The position numbers and the translations under genes were made by a program. Positions 24,509 through 51,541 of a stretch of 64,000 bases of DNA are shown in pieces (position 1 is the first letter of the stretch; each line of letters begins with the position of its first letter). Under the pieces are notes generated by a model that saw only the letters and a program-made list of their open reading frames with translations, was not told the DNA's origin and did not search any database. The DNA lies in assembly GCA_017395635.1 (NCBI GenBank), contig JAFQOE010000037.1:1-64000 (forward strand), in the 5' to 3' direction. This DNA comes from Lachnospiraceae bacterium (GTDB lineage: Bacteria > Bacillota > Clostridia > Lachnospirales > Lachnospiraceae).

Positions 24509-25405
24509 ATGAAAGGTATTATTTTAGCAGGTGGTTCGGGCACACGTCTGTATCCACTCACAAGAGTAACTTCGAAGCAGTTGTTGCCAATCTATGACAA
24601 GCCGATGATTTATTATCCGTTGTCAGTGTTGATGAATGCAGGAATTCGTGAGATTTTAATTATCTCTACTCCGCAGGATACACCAAGATTTCAGGAGTTG
24701 TTAGGGGATGGACAGCAGTTTGGTGTGCAACTTTCCTATGCAGTACAGCCAAGTCCGGATGGATTAGCGCAGGCGTTCATTATTGGTGAGGGATTCATTG
24801 GAGATGACACGGTAGCCATGGTATTAGGAGATAACATTTTTGCCGGACATGGCTTGAAGAAACGCTTGAAAGCAGCGGTTGAAAATGCAGAGACGGGGAA
24901 GGGAGCTACTGTATTTGGATATTATGTAGATGATCCGGAGCGTTTCGGTATCGTAGAGTTCAACCAAGAAGGTAAGGCGATTTCCATTGAAGAAAAGCCG
25001 GAAAACCCAAAGAGCAACTATTGTGTAACAGGACTTTATTTCTATGACAATAAGGTTGTAGAGTATGCAAAGAACTTGAAACCAAGTGCACGTGGTGAGT
25101 TGGAAATTACCGATTTGAACCGCATTTACTTGGAGAGTAACGAATTGAATGTAGAATTGCTTGGACAGGGTTTTACCTGGTTAGATACAGGAACCCATGA
25201 AAGCTTAGTAGAAGCAACTAATTTTGTTAAGACCATTGAAGATCATCAACATCGTAAGATTGCCTGTTTGGAAGAAATTGCATACCTGAATGGATGGATT
25301 ACCAAGGATGACGTAATGGAAGTTTACGAACTATTGAAGAAGAACCAATATGGACAGTACTTAAAAGACGTTTTAGATGGAAAATATCTAGATGTCCTAC
25401 ACTAA
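24509..25405 (+). CDS. rmlA: Glucose-1-phosphate thymidylyltransferase
   Basis: RmlA (298 residues) makes dTDP-glucose from dTTP and glucose-1-phosphate, the first step of dTDP-L-rhamnose synthesis. The N-terminus [18 protein letters not shown] is the nucleotide-binding loop, LGDNIF near 112 holds the metal-binding Asp, and [20 protein letters not shown] near 160-180 has the conserved sugar-binding Lys. Length is normal (about 290-300). It has a strong AGGAGG site. The other rml genes follow at 25666-28420, but a 260-bp gap with a structured repeat separates rmlA from rmlB. Confidence 0.97.
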
Positions 25406-25429: not shown

Positions 25430-25642
25430 GATAATTTTCTTTGTTTGCGGAAATTTAGCAGGTAAATTAAGTTGGATATATTTAACAAGGACCATAAGCA
25501 GGTGCTACTAAGGCCGTCGGTACTTAGCGAGACAAGGTCGAGCTTAGTACCGCTACGAGCCGCGGGCAGCGAAAGCGTGCCTGCGATGGTTTGTTAAATA
25601 TATTCAACGTATATATATACTAGGGCAAACAAGAAAATTATC
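25430..25642 (+). repeat. Structured inverted-repeat element, copy A
   Basis: A 213-bp element is bounded by imperfect terminal inverted repeats (GATAATTTTCTTTGTTTGC at 25430-25448 and its near complement at 25625-25642). Inside, a stem of about 17 bp ending in TTTAACAA/TTGTTAAA (about 25471-25604) encloses a core of about 118 bp. The core has nested pairings: ACCAT/ATGGT, GCAGG/CCTGC, GGTACTTAG/CTTAGTACC, and a small GC-GAAA-GC hairpin. The same core occurs in reverse orientation at 51341-51475. It fills the gap between rmlA and rmlB and contains no ORF. It may be a miniature mobile element or a structured RNA; transcription through it would form a long hairpin between the two genes. Confidence 0.75.
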
Positions 25643-25665: not shown

Positions 25666-26685
25666 ATGACAATTATTGTAACTGGTGGAGCAGGATTTAT
25701 TGGAAGTAACTTTGTATTTCATATGTTGGATAAGTATCCGGACTATCGTATCGTATGTTTGGATTGCTTAACTTATGCAGGTAATTTATCAACACTTGCA
25801 CCTGTAATGGATAACCCTAATTTCCGTTTTGTAAAGGAGAGCATTACAGATAGAGAAGCAGTTTATAAGCTGTTTGAGGAAGAGAAGCCTAACATGGTAG
25901 TAAACTTTGCGGCAGAGAGCCATGTTGACCGTTCAATTGAAAATCCGGAAGTATTCTTGGATACCAATATTAAGGGAACAGCAGTATTGATGGATGCATG
26001 TCGTAAGTACGGTATTGATCGTTATCATCAGGTATCTACGGATGAGGTATATGGTGATTTGCCACTTGACAGACCAGATTTGTTCTTTACAGAGGAGACA
26101 CCAATCCATACAAGTAGTCCTTATAGCTCTTCAAAGGCTGGCGCAGACTTGTTAGTATTGGCATATCATAGAACGTATGGACTTCCTGTGACAATCAGTC
26201 GTTGTTCGAACAACTATGGCCCATATCATTTCCCAGAGAAGTTAATTCCATTGATGATTGCCAACGCATTGAATGACAAGCCACTTCCTGTATATGGTAA
26301 GGGTGAGAATGTACGTGACTGGTTATATGTAGAGGATCACTGCAAGGCGATTGACTTGATTATTCATAAGGGTCGTGTTGGTGAAGTATATAACATCGGT
26401 GGACATAATGAGATGACGAATATTGATATTGTTAAGATTATTTGTAAAGAATTAGGTAAGTCAGAAGACTTAATCACATATGTAACAGATCGTAAAGGTC
26501 ATGATATGCGTTATGCAATTGATCCAACTAAGATTCACAATGAGTTGGGTTGGTTACCTGAGACAATGTTTGCAGATGGTATCAAGAAGACAATTCAGTG
26601 GTATTTGGATAACAAAGAGTGGTGGGAAACTATCATTTCAGGAGAATATCAGAATTACTATGAAAAGATGTATGGTGACCGCTAA
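25666..26685 (+). CDS. rmlB: dTDP-glucose 4,6-dehydratase
   Basis: RmlB (339 residues) is the NAD-dependent second enzyme of dTDP-rhamnose synthesis. The Rossmann motif GGAGFIGSNF is at residues 6-15, STDEVYGD near 125 carries the catalytic Thr-Asp-Glu set, and YSSSKAGAD near 160 holds the YxxxK pair. Length and motifs are canonical. It has an AGAGGAG ribosome site. It lies downstream of rmlA but across a structured repeat, and is followed by a stem-loop before rmlD, so its transcript level may differ from that of its partners. Confidence 0.97.
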   Translation: MTIIVTGGAGFIGSNFVFHMLDKYPDYRIVCLDCLTYAGNLSTLAPVMDNPNFRFVKESITDREAVYKLFEEEKPNMVVNFAAESHVDRSIENPEVFLDTNIKGTAVLMDACRKYGIDRYHQVSTDEVYGDLPLDRPDLFFTEETPIHTSSPYSSSKAGADLLVLAYHRTYGLPVTISRCSNNYGPYHFPEKLIPLMIANALNDKPLPVYGKGENVRDWLYVEDHCKAIDLIIHKGRVGEVYNIGGHNEMTNIDIVKIICKELGKSEDLITYVTDRKGHDMRYAIDPTKIHNELGWLPETMFADGIKKTIQWYLDNKEWWETIISGEYQNYYEKMYGDR

Positions 26686-48258: not shown

Positions 48259-48348
48259 TAGGTGTTTGCGAAACTCGAATTTATGTCGTGAAGTTTGTTA
48301 CATATGCACAACTAAGAACATTGTACTTACGAGTTTCGCACCCCCTAG
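48259..48348 (+). repeat. Short derivative of the structured inverted-repeat element, copy C
   Basis: This 90-bp element has ends TAGGTGTTTGCGAAACTCG and a near-complement at 48330-48348. Its right half (TTTGTTACATATGCACAA onward) aligns with the right end of the element at 51306-51512 in reverse complement, but the roughly 118-bp structured core is gone. It sits between the ABC ATPase start and the lytic transglycosylase end, where the hairpin could act as a terminator for the latter. Confidence 0.6.
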
Positions 48349-50934: not shown

Positions 50935-51195
50935 TTAGCATCCACAACCACAACCGCAATTGCTTCTGTCGCTTACGCCATTATTACCGCAGCAGCATAA
51001 AAGAAGTAAGATGATAATAATGCATGAGCAGTTTCCACCACCGAAACCACATCCATCATTGCCACCGAATAAGCCGCTTCCACAACCGTGATCGTTGCCA
51101 CCACAGCAAGAAAGAAGAAGTAAGATAATAATAATTGTTGAGCAGTTTCCACCGCCAAAACCACAACCGCAGTTGTTTGCTGATAAGTCACCCAT
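50935..51195 (-). CDS. Duplicated Cys/Gly-rich hydrophobic small protein
   Basis: This 86-residue protein is made of two near-identical modules. Each has a CGFGGGNCS stretch, then IIIILLLL, then a Cys cluster (SCCGG or CCCGN); the tail is CGCGCGC. It has about 17 Cys and 20 Gly. Proteins of this look are annotated in Clostridia as chorion-class high-cysteine proteins, with no known function. It could be a spore-coat or surface protein, a metal-binding peptide, or a modified-peptide precursor; none is proven. It has a strong GGAGGA site and a terminator. No maturation enzyme is adjacent. Confidence 0.8.
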   Translation of the reverse strand: MGDLSANNCGCGFGGGNCSTIIIILLLLSCCGGNDHGCGSGLFGGNDGCGFGGGNCSCIIIILLLLCCCGNNGVSDRSNCGCGCGC

Positions 51196-51252: not shown

Positions 51253-51305
51253 GACAATAAGATTGCTATATTTTTTTATTTTTGTTAGACTAAGGAATAG
51301 TAATA

Positions 51306-51512
51306 TAGGTAATTGCGAAACTCAAGTTTGTAATTTGATGCTTGTGCAAATTTAACAAACCAACGCAGGACGTTTGCACTTGCCACAATGCGTAACGGTA
51401 CTAAGTTCGACTATGTCTCACTAAGTACCGACGGATTGTGAAGCACCTGCTTATGGTACTTGTTAAATTTACACAAGCCAATGACAGTTTTTATGAGTTT
51501 CGTAATTACCTA
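51306..51512 (-). repeat. Structured inverted-repeat element, copy B
   Basis: A 207-bp element is bounded by 19-bp terminal inverted repeats with one mismatch (TAGGTAATTGCGAAACTCA at 51306-51324, complement at 51494-51512). Inside, a second inverted repeat (GCTTGTGCAAATTTAACAA region and its complement, 51340-51478) encloses the same roughly 118-bp core as copy A, in reverse orientation. Core differences keep pairing possible, for example CACAAT/ATTGTG in this copy. No ORF is present. It lies upstream of the S1-domain gene. Confidence 0.75.
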
Positions 51513-51541
51513 AATAGTTATAGAACAGGAGGATGTGTGTT

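Follow-up and report, generated by a model that had tools for sequence, protein, structure and literature searches.

The window analysed here, a stretch of 64,000 nucleotides from the genome of a Lachnospiraceae bacterium, contains two copies (A and B) of an inverted-repeat-bounded element, and the question it raises is whether such an element is a miniature transposon, a structured RNA or both. The boundaries and strands first proposed for the two copies hold (Table 1), and in both of them the shared core is enclosed, as had been described, by a TTTAACAA/TTGTTAAA stem. The outer inverted repeats of A and B had been found unlike each other, and this difference is genuine: those of copy B are the common transposon ends of the family, and copy A lacks them. 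The original prediction also had the elements in opposite orientation to the neighbouring genes. This is only partly so: copy A points the same way as both flanking genes (rmlA-like at 24509-25405 and rmlB-like at 25666-26685), and copy B sits between divergent genes. RNA folding gave z scores of -9.8 for copy A and -10.9 for copy B, with 0 of 200 shuffles equally stable in each case. The small gene beside copy B (about 50935-51195, minus strand) encodes a Cys/Gly-rich protein with an internal repeat, and the short element at 48259-48347 is one of several coreless remnants in the host genome.

Table 1. Positions of copies A and B, their parts and a coreless relative in the window.
Feature	Position	Strand	Remarks
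Copy A, whole element	25430..25642	+	Between a nucleotidyltransferase gene (24509-25405) and a dehydratase gene (25666-26685), both assigned by Pfam domains; co-directional with both
Copy A, outer left arm	25430..25448	+	Pairs with 25625-25642; differs from the family's common transposon end
Copy A, outer right arm	25625..25642	+	
Copy A, modelled hairpin, P1 to P1'	25472..25607	+	154.3 bits (model R1), 138.3 bits (R2)
Copy A, P2 5' strand, GCAGGTGC	25498..25505	+	Pairs with 25577-25584; adjacent U.G and G.U
Copy A, P3/P4 arm	25512..25561	+	Internal loops, tandem G.A, variable tip
Copy A, P5	25569..25576	+	Two-pair stem with a GNRA loop on top (GAAA in copy A)
Copy B, whole mobile element	51306..51512	-	Flanked by a small Cys/Gly-rich gene (minus strand) and an S1-domain gene (plus strand)
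Copy B, left transposon end	51495..51512	-	TAGGTAATTACGAAACTC on the minus strand
Copy B, right transposon end	51306..51323	+	TAGGTAATTGCGAAACTC on the plus strand
Copy B, target duplication, left side on the plus strand	51296..51305	.	AATAGTAATA
Copy B, target duplication, right side on the plus strand	51513..51522	.	AATAGTTATA; 9/10 matches
Copy B, modelled hairpin	51342..51476	-	153.6 bits (R1), 125 bits (R2)
Short coreless relative with similar ends	48259..48347	+	Right boundary set by eye

The element had been proposed to form a family of two. The family stands and the number does not, since 43 places in the host genome match the core. This count was obtained with a covariance model, built from 15 copies, which returned 73 matches, 30 of them opposite-strand shadows of the same hairpins (34-47 bits), and it includes several places truncated at contig ends. 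A DNA search of the same genome gave 41 matches, copy A's own reverse-strand shadow included. By eye, the cores fall into three subtypes, copy A belonging to one and copy B to the commonest, and an exact core pattern was present in five named stretches of the assemblies RGIG8692 and SIG303, the matches by which the family is identified as Lachnospiraceae. Two very divergent core copies without transposon ends were also noticed on host contigs C197 and C114, one of them upstream of a gene that, at its start, resembles valyl-tRNA synthetase.

The reading of these units as miniature mobile elements is supported by shared ends, target duplications, empty sites in relatives and the presence of an insertion sequence that has these ends too. 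Among 30 inspected copies, taken from the 41 DNA-search matches, 19 had both ends of the TAGGTAATTGCGAAACTC type within 5 mismatches, and the others lacked one or both partly because contigs stop there. Target duplications of about 10 bp were found in 12 of the 18 copies scored. The other 6 fell below the threshold score, which 3.3% of 306 mismatched left/right flank pairs attained. Allowing for 2 mismatches, 105 occurrences of the end motif were counted in the host genome, against 11 for its reversed control. Two of these ends (744-761 and 2496-2513 on contig C20) delimit a 1,770-bp element whose open frame encodes a protein of 491 aa, with DUF772 above the cut-off and DDE_Tnp_1 and IS1182 below it. 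Considering that the protein matches the IS1182 model along part of its sequence, at 70.8 bits, and that the curated cut-off is 270, we refer to this partner only as IS1182-like. It is flanked on both sides by TCATTTTAACC, an 11-bp duplication, and the best hairpin copies show duplications of 10-11 bp. The gap between the rmlA-like and rmlB-like genes was compared across relatives, as the original prediction had suggested: the element was absent from six of the seven compared, one relative (G670) carried it in the opposite orientation and with the usual ends, and another (G673), read separately, had it in the same orientation. At the copy B site it was absent from all three relatives compared. 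The host-genome copies with IS1182-like ends thus behave as mobile elements, and copy B is one of them. Judging from the common ends and the similar duplication length, the IS1182-like transposase probably moves the hairpins in trans. In this they are like bacterial MITEs moved in trans, being short and non-coding, with terminal inverted repeats, duplications of about 10 bp and a same-ended element in the genome, but they differ in carrying a conserved, complex RNA-like core that is found also in copies with other ends. The kinship with IS1182-like insertion sequences (DUF772/DDE_Tnp_1) lies in the partner protein, which matches the IS1182 model in part and below its curated cut-off; the hairpin itself, unlike them, holds no transposase gene. 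The insertion of the core into pre-existing palindromes was considered and rejected, for the coreless relatives in the host look like internal deletions and no such palindrome is visible at the empty orthologous sites that were compared.

The IS1182-like ends are not common to all members, being absent from copy A, from the copies of genome G178 and from 121 of the 136 copies that were classified in other genomes. Five of the six G178 copies read have ends of the GGGGCTGTAAAAAATC type with small changes, and the sixth is degenerate; within one mismatch, this motif occurs 37 times in the G178 genome, versus 0 for the reversed control. The core is thus carried by ends of at least two unrelated types, and older copies would shed their transposon ends yet retain the fold. 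Paired GGGGCTGTAAAAAATC ends about 307-310 bp apart were also seen on the G178 chromosome and may represent another miniature element.

Copies are frequent in related genomes: 142 of 397 Lachnospiraceae genomes matched the covariance model (E up to 0.001, at most 8 candidates scored per genome), the weakest hits being possible hairpin look-alikes because opposite-strand shadows score as high as 47 bits. When the second model (R2) was used at E up to 1e-6, an order-wide sample of 295 genomes yielded 30 that match and a class-wide sample of 291 yielded 7, and every matching genome was a Lachnospiraceae. The kinship order of the genomes suggests that these samples include 48 and 10 Lachnospiraceae, respectively, so that about 247 and 281 genomes would belong to other families, all of them without a match. 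Within the samples searched, the hairpin family is confined to this one bacterial family. Carriage by phages or plasmids was rejected, as the copy A hairpin had no blastn match in phage and plasmid collections. In viral contigs, a strict pattern gave 0 exact matches, and a loose one gave 59, none of which fitted the model at E 0.01. In one genome (G270, locus L125:4211-6392), two very similar open frames of about 175 aa recur along with core copies, of which two are in divergent pairs.

What all these copies share is a fold. The tip of the hairpin is a three-way junction made of P2, a P3/P4 arm and a two-pair P5 capped by a GNRA loop, and the long stem below it is nearly free in sequence. A covariance model and a test for covarying pairs, both proposed at the outset, revealed double changes in 50 of 52 pairs on 98 copies (47 of 52 in an earlier 47-copy alignment). 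The covariation score of those 98 copies, 97 of them distinct, was 0.735 in alignments that, being fitted to the model, are biased towards its own structure, versus 0.194 when shuffled and at most 0.122 when the partners were slid; two P3 helices were paired in only about 75% of cells. The GNRA loop on P5 is present in 95 of the 98 copies and the tandem G.A of P4 in 64. Several core pairs switch only among Watson-Crick types (e.g. U-A 64, C-G 34 and zero wobble), and wobbles are common at fixed places (U.G in 42 and G.U in 41 of 98 at P2, U.G in 54 at the junction). At one P4 position (columns 61/164 of alignment A3) C.A was observed in 26 of 98 copies, along with U-A in 64, C-G in 7 and no U.G. 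Folding was significant for DNA too (z -6.2). Altogether, there is strong evidence that the fold is conserved.

The element had not been recognised as a known family, and Rfam 15 returned no match to it in the searches made: none in the whole window at gathering cut-offs, none for copy A up to E 5, and nothing over the element to E 1 at 8 loci with divergent copies, one of which had two matches beside it. Neither outcome that would have spoken against the original prediction, a lack of further copies in related genomes or a known repeat or RNA family behind the two copies, occurred. No tRNA or tmRNA was detected in the window. An attC-like integron site was considered because the host-genome stems read GTTTAAC/GTTAAAT, which recalls the attC consensus, and was rejected because stems in other genomes do not read so. 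REP/BIME, BOX and similar intergenic palindromes occur as many hairpins per genome in either orientation. The present family is like them in both respects, and differs by its three-way-junction tip, its GNRA loop and its very strong covariation.

Whether the paired changes reflect selection, and on which strand, was examined in the arms. Scored with symmetric penalties, 153 elements had 58 G.U versus 29 A.C in their arms (p 0.0025), an excess that favours selection on the sense RNA. Looser settings gave 100 to 60 and 150 to 110. When the set was split, the counts were 22 to 16 (p 0.42) for the 23 end-bearing copies and 78 to 44 (p 0.003) for the remaining 130, and the excess vanished (239 to 251) once the alignment extended into the flanks. 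That the sense strand may be under selection as RNA is, on these comparisons, moderately supported. Thirteen site pairs were judged orthologous by their flanks, eight of them within genus g207, where the elements were 96-99% identical in seven pairs and 89% in one, with flanks at 83-95%. In the other five, elements (80-86%) were no better kept by identity than flanks (77-85%), yet their changes were paired, and two of these pairs carry different core subtypes. At three orthologous sites (L239/L258, L241/L267 and L001/L170), both arms had been replaced and the pairing retained.

Such sites bear on the possibility that the stem covariation is mainly mutational, template switching recopying one arm from the other so that pairing persists without selection and the tip alone is constrained. 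The mechanism is described in PMC8794818, and arms that are replaced and remain paired are what it would produce. Taken alone, it leaves unexplained both the covariation of the short core helices between conserved loops and the G.U excess; we regard it as a serious explanation with a little less than an even chance of being right. We read the sites as pointing to a tip that is probably kept by selection and arms that are probably kept by template switching.

The surroundings of the copies speak to whether the hairpin works as DNA or as RNA. No orientation preference was found in the 80 top-scoring copies, from 14 genomes: 29 were sense to both neighbours and 24 antisense to both, with 14 and 12 mixed and 1 incomplete. 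For copies without the usual ends, the 5' gap was longer than the 3' one when both neighbours were sense (medians 96/38.5, n=50, p 0.001), when both were antisense (120.5/32, n=36, p 0.0005) and when they were convergent (122/23, n=21, p 0.012), and between divergent neighbours the gaps did not differ in this way (98.5/59, n=14, p 0.50), orthologous sites being included in all these counts. Where a second copy lies nearby, 9 of the 13 pairs are divergent (p 0.001, assuming independent pairs). Together with the longer 5' gap, this hints at something functional 5' of the hairpin. The search for a promoter motif yielded nothing convincing, only a weak TATAAT-like peak at -40 to -30 with no -35 partner, and the other orientation shows a lesser peak of the same kind. 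For copy A, no terminator-like site was found.

The lack of an orientation bias and of a clear promoter would fit a hairpin that works as DNA, that is, a cruciform or single-stranded tip read by a DNA-binding protein in mobility, replication or chromosome organisation, the RNA being incidental. The significant DNA fold and the many purely Watson-Crick core pairs agree with this. The common wobbles at fixed P2 and junction places and the nearly constant GNRA loop argue the other way, and so does the excess of G.U over A.C in the arms (58 versus 29), itself absent in the 23 end-bearing copies and weaker at looser settings. We consider a DNA role unlikely, roughly a one-in-four matter.

That the elements serve sugar and other operons in cis, as leaders or as antitermination signals of, for example, the LoaP type, is improbable. 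Such a role is suggested by copy A and by copies in two genomes of genus g154 (assessed by eye), which lie just upstream of an rmlB-like gene, and by the 11 of 14 g154 copies, orthologous sites counted separately, that are sense to both neighbours. The sense bias is nevertheless absent in the 80-copy set, and the host-genome copies are mostly antisense to both neighbours (15 of 23, versus 4 sense to both). Moreover, LoaP and the RNA do not co-occur: of the 397 genomes, 46 have LoaP above its cut-off, and the RNA was found in 14 of these 46 versus 128 of the other 351 (Fisher p 0.51). Nor was there a dominant gene neighbour: among the 112 flanking proteins scanned, the commonest family accounts for 5. 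The compact fold, the nearly invariant loop bases and the multi-copy, mobile nature of the element might suggest a new RNA, carried by mobile hairpins, that cleaves itself or is catalytic in some other way. This is very improbable, since no Rfam match lies over the element and the stem would presumably still hold both halves after cleavage of the tip.

We believe that the best explanation of the whole, with about an even chance of being correct, is a non-autonomous hairpin family with a junction RNA at its tip, whose sense transcript is bound by a host factor. Each unit would be a long stem of nearly free sequence that displays the conserved three-way junction, with its P2, P3/P4 and GNRA-capped P5. 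Sense transcription of the element would come either from read-through or from something that lies in the 5' flank, and the arms would stay paired partly through template switching. A host protein or ribonucleoprotein would bind the junction tip and either protect the transcript or recruit it; the LoaP, gene-neighbour and orientation tests yielded no such partner. More tentatively, and with the odds against it, the family may represent a class of RNA found throughout the Lachnospiraceae, spreading as the tip of hairpins that are free in sequence. Its core would recruit a host ribonucleoprotein and travel with different transposon ends, its stems would be rewritten by template switching while selection keeps the fold, and a mobile element would thus turn into a resident, vertically kept family of RNA genes.

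No paper describing the element by its title or the start of its abstract was found, and the accessible parts of PMC11109978, PMC8040213, PMC2267715 and PMC8794818 contain no description of it. In PMC8040213, 3,161 candidate structured RNAs have been proposed from human microbiomes, and the element may be among them. PMC11109978 describes MRSC-65-2, a mobile or repeat candidate from diverse phyla with a single long stem and UYCCGG repeats. Both are multi-copy, MRSC-65-2 and the present family alike, have a long covarying stem and may act as DNA or RNA, and the present family differs in having a junction core and in matching one bacterial family only. The evidence points to a structured RNA family new to description.

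If true, this would add a large structured RNA family, with no Rfam 15 match in the searches made, to a major gut lineage, the carrier family being one of mainly gut bacteria. It would also tie the biology of insertion sequences to RNA structure, one core being common to copies with unrelated ends. Moreover, the orthologous sites represent a natural experiment on the rewriting of stems with pairing retained, which makes template switching versus compensatory selection directly testable.
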